DNA of 64,000 nt. It comes from Pseudomonadota bacterium (lineage in GTDB: Bacteria; Pseudomonadota; Gammaproteobacteria; Burkholderiales; Burkholderiaceae_C). The position numbers and the translations under genes were made by a program. The notes beneath the pieces were generated by a model that made no database searches, was not told where the DNA came from, and saw nothing but the letters and a program-made list of their open reading frames with translations. The DNA lies in the NCBI GenBank assembly GCA_021847345.1, contig JAJZTW010000007.1:1-64000 (forward strand), written 5' to 3'. Positions 1 to 45,090 of this stretch are shown here, one piece after another. Numbering within the stretch: the first letter of the stretch is position 1; the number at the start of each line of letters is the position of its first letter.

Positions 1-124
1 CACCTCGCAGCTTGCAGGCTGCTCGGATTCGGCCGGCGCGCTGCTGTGCGCAGGCACAGCAGCTGGTCCGGCCTCATCCCCCGTGGGGGTCAAGCAATCT
101 CGGGGCGGCCCGGCGATTGCTTGA
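1..124 (-). repeat. structured intergenic repeat, copy 1 (possibly truncated by window edge)
   Basis: Positions 1-89 match the reverse complement of 43139-43227 at 87 of 89 bases. Read on the minus strand from 124 downward it forms four hairpins. H1 has 10-bp arms at 115-124 and 90-99 with a 15-nt loop containing GGGCCGCCCC. H2 is five C, two bases, five G at 78-89. H3 has 10-bp arms at 54-63 and 40-49. H4 is a weak 5-bp GCAGC hairpin near 8-23. It lies just past the stop of the NUDIX gene in that gene's sense orientation. The H1 stem sequence differs from the copies near 43.0 kb, but both arms changed together. Function unknown. Confidence 0.8.
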
Positions 125-142
125 GAGCCCGCGCGCCCGGGC

Positions 143-25408: not shown

Positions 25409-25447
25409 GGATGCGCGCATCGCGAGCGCGCACTGTATAGAAAGAGG

Positions 25448-25778
25448 CAAAGCAAGCCTGTAGGCCGGATTCTGTGCGCCGGTTTCCCGGCGTGGCAGCC
25501 ATTCCTCTGGGCCGCGCGTTACCGTCGCGGCTCGATGCCACCTACCCGCAGGCTCGCGCGGGCCGCGCTCCCGGCGCCTTTCGGCGCCTTCGCCTGCCTA
25601 TTTGGTGTTGCTCCGGGTGGAGGTTGCCGCGTTTCACGTCCGCGCGGCTCGCGCCGCGCATACTCGTCTCTGTGGCCCTGTTCGTCGCGTCGCCGCGCAC
25701 GGCCGTTAGCCGTCACCCTGCCCTGTGGAGTCCGGACCTTCCTCACCGCTCGCGCAGCGCGACTGCCCGGCCTGCTTC
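25448..25778 (-). ncRNA. rnpB: RNase P RNA (bacterial type A)
   Basis: The RNA component of RNase P, which trims tRNA 5' leaders. On the minus strand the RNA starts near GAAGCAGGCCGGGCAGTCGC (25778), then carries the conserved GAGGAAGGTCCGGACTCCAC and CAGGGCAGGGTGACGG. Further on are CTCCACCCGGAGCAACACCA and AAATAGG, and the 3' region CAGAATCCGGCCTACAGGC. The two ends can pair (AAGCAGGCC with GGCTTGCTT) to form helix P1. The 5' end is 12 bp past the pyrC stop, so its promoter must lie within pyrC or it is cotranscribed. Exact ends are estimates. Confidence 0.95.
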
Positions 25779-31329: not shown

Positions 31330-31403
31330 CTGGGGAGGAAGGATTCGAACCCTCGAATGCCGGAATCAAAATCCGGTGCCTTAACCAACTTGGCGACTCC
31401 CCA
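31330..31403 (-). tRNA. tRNA-Gln (TTG)
   Basis: A 74-nt tRNA on the minus strand. The 5' acceptor TGGGGAG pairs with CTCCCCA near the 3' end, discriminator G follows, and CCA is not encoded (CCC instead). The anticodon loop reads TTTTGAT with anticodon TTG, flanked by the CCGGA/TCCGG stem. The T-arm GAGGGTTCGAATCCTTC is standard. The sequence closely resembles E. coli tRNA-Gln. It lies between ispE and prs in the same orientation. Confidence 0.97.
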
Positions 31404-41992: not shown

Positions 41993-42889
41993 TCAGTCCT
42001 CGGCACCGAGGATCTCGTGCCAATGCAGCTTCTTGCGCAGCGTGGAGAAGTAGCTCCAGCCCGGCGGGTGCAGGAACAGCGCGCGATACGGAGCGATGCT
42101 CAGGTGGATATGGTCCCCACCCATCAGGTCGGCGAAATGCTGCATGTCGAAATTCACGCCCACGTCGCTGCGCGACGCGACCTCGATGTCGATGCGCACC
42201 TGCTCGGGCAGCACGATCGGGCGATTGGACAAGGTATGCGCAGCGATCGGCACCAGCACCAGCCCCGGCAGGCTCGGGTGCAGGATGGGGCCTCCAGCCG
42301 ACATCGCGTAGGCCGTCGACCCCGTGGGGGTGGCCACGATCAGCCCGTCGGCCCGCTGCGCGTACATGGCGCGACCGTCGACCTCGACGCGCAACTCCAC
42401 CAGCCCGGTGGCGCCGCTGCGGTTGACCACCACGTCGTTGATCGCGATGCCGGTGTAGATGGCTTCGCCGTCGCGCAGCACCTGCCCGGACAGCACGGCG
42501 CGCTGCTCGCGCTCGAAATGCCCGGCCAGCATCGACCCCAGCGCCTCGCGCCACTCGGACTCGGCGATGTCGGTGATGAATCCCAGGCGTCCGGAGTTGA
42601 TGCCCATCAGCGGCACCCCCCAGGGCGCGAGTTCGCGCGCGGCGCCCAGCATGGTGCCGTCGCCGCCGACCACGATCGCCACCCAGTCGCCCCCCGCGCG
42701 GCGGCCGATGTCGAGCAGGCTGGCGCTGGCATGCCCCGGCAGATCGCATTGCAGCGAAGTCTGCTGTTCGATGACCGGCTCGACCCCCTGCCCGGCGAGC
42801 CAGGCCGCGATGTCGCCCAGCGTGTCGGAAACGCCGGCCGCCTGGTGCTTGCCGATCAGGACTGCGTGCTGGAAAACGGGTGTGGGCAT
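41993..42889 (-). CDS. nadK: NAD kinase
   Basis: NadK, 298 residues, phosphorylates NAD to NADP using ATP or polyphosphate. The GGDGT motif is at 75-79, SGRLGFIT follows near 99-106, and ND in INDVVVNR plus TPTGSTAYAMSAGGPI complete the active site. The ATG at 42889 begins MPTPVFQHAVLIGK, the normal NadK start; the same frame happens to stay open upstream through the repeat element, but that part is not coding. It is divergent from hrcA across 436 bp and probably cotranscribed with recN. Confidence 0.97.
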   Translation of the reverse strand: MPTPVFQHAVLIGKHQAAGVSDTLGDIAAWLAGQGVEPVIEQQTSLQCDLPGHASASLLDIGRRAGGDWVAIVVGGDGTMLGAARELAPWGVPLMGINSGRLGFITDIAESEWREALGSMLAGHFEREQRAVLSGQVLRDGEAIYTGIAINDVVVNRSGATGLVELRVEVDGRAMYAQRADGLIVATPTGSTAYAMSAGGPILHPSLPGLVLVPIAAHTLSNRPIVLPEQVRIDIEVASRSDVGVNFDMQHFADLMGGDHIHLSIAPYRALFLHPPGWSYFSTLRKKLHWHEILGAED

Positions 42890-43017
42890 GGGCGAAATGC
42901 GGAGGAACACGGGCACGACAGCACGCGAGCTGGCCGTTGAAATACCGCTGGAAGCCGCGCACGCCGGAAGGCGCCCAGGCTCCGGGCCCACCGAGCATGA
43001 CGGCATTACAGCACAGG

Positions 43018-43262
43018 CTCCCGAGAAAACGCAGGGCCGCCCCAAGTTTTCTCGGCCCCCGCGGGGGGCGGGTCGGGCCCCAGGCCCGGCCCTGGGGGCA
43101 CTCCCGAGAAAACGAAGGGCCGCCCCAGTTTTTCTCGGCCCCCGCGGGGGATGAGGCCAGACCAGCTGCTGTGCCTGCGCACAGCAGCGCGCCGGCCGAA
43201 TCCGAGCAGCCTGCAAGCTGCGAGGTGGAACGGGTCGGGCCCCAGGCCCGGCCCTGGGGGCA
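43018..43262 (+). repeat. composite structured repeat array between nadK and hrcA
   Basis: The 436-bp nadK-hrcA gap contains this array and no credible gene. Two 50-bp units (43018-43067, 43101-43150) each hold hairpin H1 (arms CCGAGAAAAC and complement, loop with GGGCCGCCCC) followed by H2 (CCCCCGCGGGGG). Identical 32-bp units (43069-43100, 43231-43262) form a hairpin with 7-bp arms CCCCAGG/CCTGGGG. Between the second H1-H2 and the last 32-mer is an 89-bp block shared with 1-89 (87 matches, opposite strand) containing H3 (43165-43188) and H4. The second H1 has one extra T in its right arm. The array lies upstream of both flanking genes. Confidence 0.85.
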
Positions 43263-43308
43263 GCCATGACCGGCCGCCACGTCGCGCGCGGCGCGCGACG
43301 CCTGCGAA

Positions 43309-43320
43309 GATTTTAAAATC
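43309..43320. promoter_or_regulatory. AT palindrome 5 bp before the hrcA start
   Basis: GATTTTAAAATC is a perfect 12-bp palindrome immediately upstream of the hrcA ATG at 43326, in an otherwise GC-rich gap. No CIRCE element (TTAGCACTC-N9-GAGTGCTAA), the known HrcA operator, is seen here. The palindrome may be part of the promoter or ribosome-binding region. Confidence 0.3.
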
Positions 43321-43325
43321 GGGGC

Positions 43326-44345
43326 ATGGACGAACGAGCCCGCCTGCTGCTCAAGACCCTGATCGAGCGCTACATCGCCGACGGACAGCCCGTCGGCTCG
43401 CGCACCCTGTCGCGCGCGTCGGGGCTGGAACTGTCGGCGGCGACCATTCGCAACGTGATGGCCGACCTCGAGGAACTGGGCCTGATCGCCAGTCCCCACA
43501 CGTCCGCCGGGCGGATTCCGACGCCGCGTGGCTACCGCCTGTTCGTCGACACCATGCTGACGGCGCGCCCGCCCGAGGGAGCCGAGGAACTGGAACAGCG
43601 CTTCCGCTCCGAGCTGGCCGGCATCGAGCCGCAGAAGGTGATCGTCAACGCCGCGCGCCTGCTGTCCAACCTGTCGCATTTCGTCGGTGTCGTGATGAGC
43701 CCGCGGCGCGACGCGGCGTTTCGCCACATCGAATTCCTGCGCCTGTCGGAGCAGCGCATCCTGGTCATCCTGGTCGACGCCACCGGGGGCGTGCAGAACC
43801 GCATCATCGTCTCCGCGCATCCCTACACCCAGGGGCAGCTCACCGAAGCGGCCAACTACCTGAACGCACATTGCAGCGGACTGAGCTTCGAGCAGATGGC
43901 CGCGCAAATGCGCGGCGAGGTCGAGAACCTGCGCGGCGAGATCGTCGCGCTGATGCAGGCCGCGGTCGCCGCTGCCAGCCAGGCCGCCGCCGAACAGGAC
44001 GAGCAGCTGGTGATCTCGGGCCAGCAGCAACTGCTCAAGGTGGACGACCTGTCCAGCGACCTCGCCAGCCTGCGCCGCCTGTTCGACCTGTTCGAGCAGA
44101 AGTCGCTGCTGCTGCGCCTGCTCGAGAGCTCGGAGCGCTCCGAGGGGGTGCGCATCTACATCGGCGGCGAAAGCGAGGTCGTGCCCTTCGAGGAGCTGTC
44201 GGTGATCACCGCACCCTACGAGGTCGACGGGCGCGTGGTCGGCACGCTGGGAGTCATCGGGCCCACGCGCATGCCCTACGACCGCATGATCCGCATCGTC
44301 GACATCACCGCCAAGCTGGTCGGCAACACGCTCAGCCAGCGCTGA
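43326..44345 (+). CDS. hrcA: heat-inducible transcription repressor HrcA
   Basis: HrcA, 339 residues, represses heat-shock genes by binding CIRCE with help from GroEL. The N-terminal winged helix includes [10 protein letters not shown] and [19 protein letters not shown], followed by [19 protein letters not shown]. The GAF-like and dimerisation domains follow, ending in [18 protein letters not shown]. The ATG at 43326 matches the usual N-terminus. No CIRCE element or groESL/dnaK gene is in this window, so its targets lie elsewhere. It is convergent with the pseudopilin-like gene. Confidence 0.96.
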
Positions 44346-45014: not shown

Positions 45015-45090
45015 GGGCCCTTAGCTCAATGGTCAGAGCAGCGGACTCATAATCCGTTGGTTGCGGGTTCGAGCCCCGCAGGGCCCACCA
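45015..45090 (+). tRNA. tRNA with CAT anticodon, probably tRNA-Ile2
   Basis: A 76-nt tRNA with encoded CCA. The acceptor GGGCCC pairs with GGGCCC near the 3' end, the D-arm is AGCTCAATGGTCAGAGC, the anticodon loop is CTCATAA and the T-arm GCGGGTTCGAGCCCCGC. CAT occurs in initiator Met, elongator Met and the Ile2 tRNA whose C34 becomes lysidine. The body resembles tRNA-Ile2 (GGGCCCTTAGCTCA start and GACTCATAATC arm) more than either Met type; elongator Met remains possible. The next gene converges on it 11 bp away. Confidence 0.93.

Follow-up and report, generated by a model that had tools for sequence, protein, structure and literature searches.

A dispersed hairpin repeat with a constant tip and variable, matched stems in a Thiomonas-type genome and its relatives

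Background

The IS200/IS605 elements insert beside a short target that is retained at one end, and hairpin structure is what is recognised. REPINs and BIMEs, which are linked to RAYTs, form mosaic and tandem arrays. In the parts of the REP literature available to us, REPs are tagged hairpins associated with RAYTs, and those that lie near stop codons stall ribosomes (PMC3733652, PMC12306157, PMC2267715); a CGTC-tagged class has no dedicated transposase (PMC3733652). The beta-proteobacterial repeat element (BRE) is described, in the available part of its account, as a mostly intergenic tandem repeat of 75–91 bp with a GC content of 63.7–78.9%, present in Bordetella, Comamonadaceae and Azoarcus with variable copy number and context and with mobility suggested (PMC3110155); this 2011 description is the only literature that we found under the name BRE.

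The repeat analyzed here was noticed in a stretch of 64,000 nucleotides of a Thiomonas-type genome (called "the window" below). Its tandem spacing in the source genome (78–85 bp, most commonly 81 or 83), the 83-bp length and 78.3% GC of its unit in the window, and its betaproteobacterial host range fit the BRE criteria as far as these are available to us; the species in Table 2 of the BRE description are absent by name from the set of genomes tested. On the other hand, the available part of that description makes no mention of a fixed tip, of stem exchange, of a target site, or of empty sites and stop codons (PMC3110155). Judged by description, the repeat may be the little-studied BRE itself. 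It shares with the GTAG- and CGTC-tagged REPs, as they are presented in the available text, the form of short, tagged, multi-copy extragenic hairpins, some of them close behind stop codons (PMC3733652, PMC12306157), and with the CGTC class the lack of a dedicated transposase; it differs in its CTC tag, in a constant 15-nt internal loop and tip combined with many stems, and in having a second hairpin, a C/G tail and a unit of about 83 bp. The GTAG tag at the hairpin foot that marks REPs with a RAYT is absent, the foot being most often CTC, and the repeat qualifies as a REP in the broader sense of a mobile, palindromic, extragenic sequence present in many copies. Like REPINs and BIMEs it forms mosaic and tandem arrays and has an inverted two-unit form; unlike them, it occurs in a genome with no match to Y1_Tnp, and its copy number does not track Y1_Tnp. 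The short target at one end and the hairpin recognition proposed below recall the IS200/IS605 ends, but neither a transposase nor a gene-bearing copy was seen here.

Results and Discussion

Architecture of the repeat

Read in the direction of its first hairpin (H1), the unit consists of CTC, H1, the tail CCCCC-NN-GGGGGG (written out, CCCCCNNGGGGGG), a second hairpin (H2), GGGGGC[G/A] and CTC, with an optional internal block between tail and H2 (Table 1). Five stretches folded as DNA gave for H1 a stem of 9–10 bp, an internal loop and a GGG-CCGC-CCC tip; the tip region is GCN-GGGCCGCCCC-AA, in full GCNGGGCCGCCCCAA. Direct reading confirmed the three H1 hairpins of the original prediction, each with GGGCCGCCCC followed by CCCCC-NN-GGGGG. 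Four of ten stem positions do differ between TCAAGCAATC and CCGAGAAAAC, and each of these differences is compensated on the opposite arm in the 43021 copy; the 43104 copy, which had been given the same stem, is not an exact twin (its loop starts with GAA and its innermost pair is broken). The 87/89 identity first given for the flanking block is corrected to 77/78, over the 78 bp of block visible at the window start; the remainder of the third-copy block is missing because base 1 of the window is base 1 of its contig (C73). The folding energy of window positions 43015–43262 lies below that of all 200 of 200 shuffles (z -4.6), so the fold is not due to chance.

Table 1. Parts of the repeat copies in the window
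Feature	Position	Strand	Remark
Unit 1: CTC foot, H1 hairpin 43021-43055 (stem CCGAGAAAAC), CCCCC-NN-GGGGG tail	43018..43067	+	
Unit 1 end: H2 hairpin and GGGGGCA	43069..43100	+	Exact repeat of 43231-43262
Unit 2: CTC foot, H1 hairpin 43104-43138 (innermost pair broken), tail	43101..43150	+	
Internal block GATGAGG...GTGGAA, tail to H2	43150..43230	+	In 19 block-found copies (18 in the source genome, 1 in G015)
Unit 2 end: H2 hairpin and GGGGGCA	43231..43262	+	
Third copy: CTC foot, H1 hairpin 90-124 (stem TCAAGCAATC), tail	78..127	-	
Third-copy internal block, truncated at contig start	1..78	-	

Two open reading frames cross the repeats, 41993–43267 (-) and 42459–43154 (+). A 424-aa frame through the repeats prolongs the NAD kinase, and such frames are a source of false proteins and wrong starts. 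The window also contains a class A RNase P RNA (25445–25778, -) and two tRNA genes (31330–31403, -, and 45015–45087, +).

In a symmetric relative of the repeat, a pair of inverted units that share this tip flanks the inverted repeat GCCGCCTGCGGCGGC at a spacing of about 220 bp. This form is present on contigs C15, C71, C102 and C111 of the source genome (loci L154, L158, L159 and L164); in several cases the flanking gene ends face the element, and several of its places are common to the source genome and a relative, G015.

Copy number and distribution

A covariance model built from 29 distinct hairpins of the source genome finds at least 136 matches there (E≤1; 150 of 4330 first-look candidates were scored), the weakest of which duplicates another match on the reverse strand, and blast with a 251-bp query finds 61 places at E≤10. 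The search of the whole genome and its relatives that had been proposed at the outset thus reveals a dispersed family that is larger than three copies. Thirty-six of 60 genomes have model matches at E≤0.01; these are the source genome, all 27 of 27 congeners, 7 of the 8 further genera in the family and 1 of 24 genomes from other families. When the order was drawn evenly, 40 of 399 genomes matched (E≤0.001), representing 28 of 159 genera and ten families. A pattern scan of named genomes gave at least 112 stretches, and the named hosts among the matches listed are Thiomonas, Xenophilus, Curvibacter, Piscinibacter, Ideonella, Pelomonas, Zoogloea, Aromatoleum, Burkholderia and Trinickia. The source genome and its relatives are for the most part drafts or MAGs; because assembly breaks at repeats, the copy number is probably an underestimate. 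Draft contigs start or end within repeats at window positions 1–127 and elsewhere, for example on C8, C29, C15, C104, C110, C117 and C97. A search for carriage by phages gave no phage match, and plasmid carriage was set aside, the one match in the plasmid collection being partial, in a Burkholderia arboris replicon.

Orthologous places in related genomes

HrcA was found in 26 of the 28 genomes of the genus (identity confirmed by Pfam), and among these loci the element lies upstream of hrcA only in the source genome and in G015, which is its nearest relative by HrcA (99%). This window array (42890–43325) is atypical in that it lies between the divergent starts of nadK and hrcA with no stop codon before it; the other genomes of the genus, G015 excepted, are without it. 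Behind ligA in the source genome the element follows the TGA directly, and the corresponding place in G015 is empty, with continuous flanks; in the 230 nt downstream of ligA, none of the 28 genus genomes but the source genome has the element. Similarly, among 26 engB loci it lies behind the gene in the source genome alone. When 26 further gene ends of the source genome were queried in G015, the flanking gene of 21 distinct arrays was located there (one of these, L144, was compared by eye). None of the 21 arrays is present in G015 (no hairpin tip within 260 nt), and 14 of the 21 places are clean empty sites in which both flanks align to within 9 nt of the junction; that of ligA is a further clean empty site. 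Many copies in the source genome are therefore recent, being absent at the matching places in G015. Some family-1 places are common to the two genomes (L319 and L320, and L321 with L050 of the source genome), and at L144 and L360 the element lies behind the same gene in two species, the stem being chimeric in one. Thus the repeat has dispersed and formed tandem arrays, and many of its copies are missing from the nearest relative; the mobile REP-like unit offered in the original prediction is well supported by the empty sites in G015 and by right ends at stop codons.

Target site and stop codons

We counted 220 distinct right ends, leaving out 82 inner units and another 36 ends that were short or unread, and accepted stop codons only for frames open over at least 100 codons. 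In 111 of the 220 a stop codon lies within 4 nt of the right end, 76 of them at exactly 2 nt, as against 15 of 1055 random positions nearby and 4 of 161 left ends. An A follows the right CTC at 67 of the 80 stop sites and at 28 of the 45 remaining sites (one has N), so that the target reads CTCA, or TGAG in the gene direction. The element lands at (C)TCA (TGAG on the other strand), and within a stop codon the TGA is restored. Of the 39 tolerated TGAG sites in the window, 14 coincide with stop codons and 25 are intergenic (by rough gene calls), which predicts 36%; over all genomes 80 of 125 CTC ends (64%) are at stops. The target together with tolerance therefore explains much of the stop-codon placement, not all of it, and that placement is weakened as proof of function.

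A clean 3-bp target duplication, suggested by ligA, was dropped. The left-end foot triplet is CTC in 120 of 247 cases, TTC in 17 and GTC in 10; at L074 and L144 it equals the triplet of the G015 empty site (GTC and TTC, respectively), and only this left triplet follows the target. Because the right triplet at both is CTC, unlike the target, the right CTC seems to be supplied by the element itself, a reading of the junction that rests on two sites with a non-CTC target triplet, L144 by eye. The left triplets at L120, L009, L018 and L042 match the target less simply.

The position of right ends within 4 nt of stop codons, and its excess (64% against an expected 36%), would also suit an RNA element at the 3' end of the message that stalls ribosomes, protects mRNA or terminates transcription, RNA selection then keeping both pairing and position; in E. 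coli, ribosomes do stall at REPs that lie no more than 15 nt from a stop codon, according to the available part of one report (PMC12306157). Several observations make this explanation unlikely, in our opinion. Much of the position is accounted for by the TGAG target, many copies are recent, and the two window units occupy the interval between the divergent genes nadK and hrcA, with no stop codon before them. As an intrinsic terminator the repeat was rejected: region 42850–43400 has a single weak site, not clearly above the shuffle mean of 0.5, and its T-run is the stem itself. Deviations from Watson-Crick pairing on the H1 strand comprise 25 G-T and 11 A-C (p 0.03; 31 others fit neither), or 18 and 11 when collapsed by group (p 0.26), a weak hint that the strand that must fold is the H1 strand, which is antisense to the abutting gene; the bias therefore speaks weakly against an mRNA role. 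Neither the repeats of the window nor six loci gave a match over the Rfam gathering threshold, the scan of the six loci yielding four weak matches to microRNA models only, on the symmetric form, so the structured RNA of the original prediction finds no positive support here.

Constant tip and variable stems

Searches by covariance model or pattern build the constancy of the tip into the copies they find; anchoring on the tail or on the block tests it independently. Among 76 copies of the source genome anchored by tail only, exact GGGCCGCCCC is present in 71 and GGGCCG[CT]CCC in 75; among 19 copies anchored by block (18 in the source genome and one in G015) the tip is present in 18; the leftover copy in each set has an extra base. 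In 17 block-bearing rows the arms are 75–76% identical, the 15-nt tip region 92% and the block 99%. The statement that the stem evolves faster than its surroundings thus holds as a measurement; as a process, exchange of stem types looks likelier than point change.

The stems are widely variable with matched arms around this fixed tip and tail. In 338 hairpins (121 from the source genome, 94 from six relatives and 123 from named genomes) all nine counted stem positions are paired in 250, G-T allowed. Fifty-five of 108 distinct arm combinations are fully paired (shuffled mean 4.7, maximum 11), and at least 35 different stems are fully Watson-Crick. In alignment A1, pairing holds in 95.8% of cells (shuffled mean 85.8%), and both sides have changed in 36 cells (shuffled mean 11.7). 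Because the copies are related by descent, these counts cannot be taken as independent events. Matched change on both arms is nevertheless real and general across the hairpin set. The further claim that such change directly demonstrates selection on base pairing is too strong: selection is not established, since copies multiply and recombine, so that one change is inherited many times, and since template switching within the hairpin could keep the arms matched (a process described, in the available part of its source, for RNA hairpins; PMC8794818). Moreover, uncompensated mismatches, which the original prediction took to speak against a selected structure, are present in chimeric stems that have one arm from each of two stem types (L134, L140, L144 and L149 in the source genome and L367 in G014). 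In a fixed register 88 of the 338 hairpins are incompletely paired, and some of these have the stem in another register; in the source genome 27 of 121 have at least one of the nine positions unpaired, 16 of them at one position.

Stems also differ at a single orthologous place. At hrcA the source genome has CCGAGAAAAC/GTTTTCTCGG and G015 has TTGAGAAAAC/GTTTTCTCAA, and the pairs L001/L319 and L352/L363 have different stems with the tip unchanged. L352 (G009) and L363 (G014) share 90% identity across 1.6 kb and have the stems CGAGTCGAC and CGAGAAAGC, in which several neighbouring pairs differ together; survival of different array units could also have produced this difference. Joint change of adjacent pairs is what would be expected if mutation itself keeps the arms matched, one arm being copied onto the other by template switching whether or not the stem matters. 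Such switching can generate and maintain hairpins in the RNA case described (PMC8794818), and chimeric arms would supply its raw material. We regard this as a serious possibility, somewhat short of an even chance: G-T and A-C intermediates occur, as in stepwise change, and switching leaves the spread, the target and the fixed tail unexplained. It is compatible with a mobile element of the kind favoured below, as a source of new stems.

Could each stem instead belong to a separate subfamily with its own recombinase, as in REP and RAYT subfamilies? Relatives do have common stems of their own (for example TCAAGCCATC in G012), and stem type and H2 type are partly associated (by eye). However, tip, tail and block are constant whatever the stem, and different stems are mixed at one orthologous place and within one tandem array (L003, L033 and L035; L367), so we consider many separate subfamilies improbable.

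How the repeat may move

No match to Y1_Tnp (PF01797) was found in the source genome. It is present in 10 of the 28 genus genomes, where repeat copies number from 1 to at least 100 in genomes with it and from 4 to at least 100 in those without it. This distribution is unsupportive of a RAYT as the mover (rank correlation between copies and Y1 count -0.29, p 0.14). A scan of 381 hairpins revealed no longer copy bearing a gene.

The repeat is probably a short, non-autonomous mobile element of the REP type, whose tip is recognised and whose stem needs only to pair. Such an element would be moved by a recombinase that acts on one folded DNA strand and reads the fixed tip (GGG-CCGC-CCC with its GCN/AA internal loop) and the foot CTC. 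The stem would have only to pair and would change by exchange of arms between copies, and mismatched hairpins would then be removed or repaired. More speculatively, and rather doubtfully, this may be a class of mobile DNA whose non-Y1 recombinase reads tip and foot only, with insertion at TGA|G rebuilding the stop codon and the stem being rewritten as matched arms during or between moves (by hairpin-primed copying, for example); the stem would then be a free label and no signal.

Conclusion

Taken together, the large size of this hairpin family, the constancy of its tip across many matched stems, its recent insertions behind stop codons and the lack of a matching transposase point to a mover that is not a RAYT. 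More than 100 natural variants form a set that bears on whether tip, pairing or stem sequence is the recognised feature, and on whether selection or copying within the hairpin is the origin of the matched stems. In the annotation of these genomes, the repeat accounts for broken contigs and spurious open reading frames.
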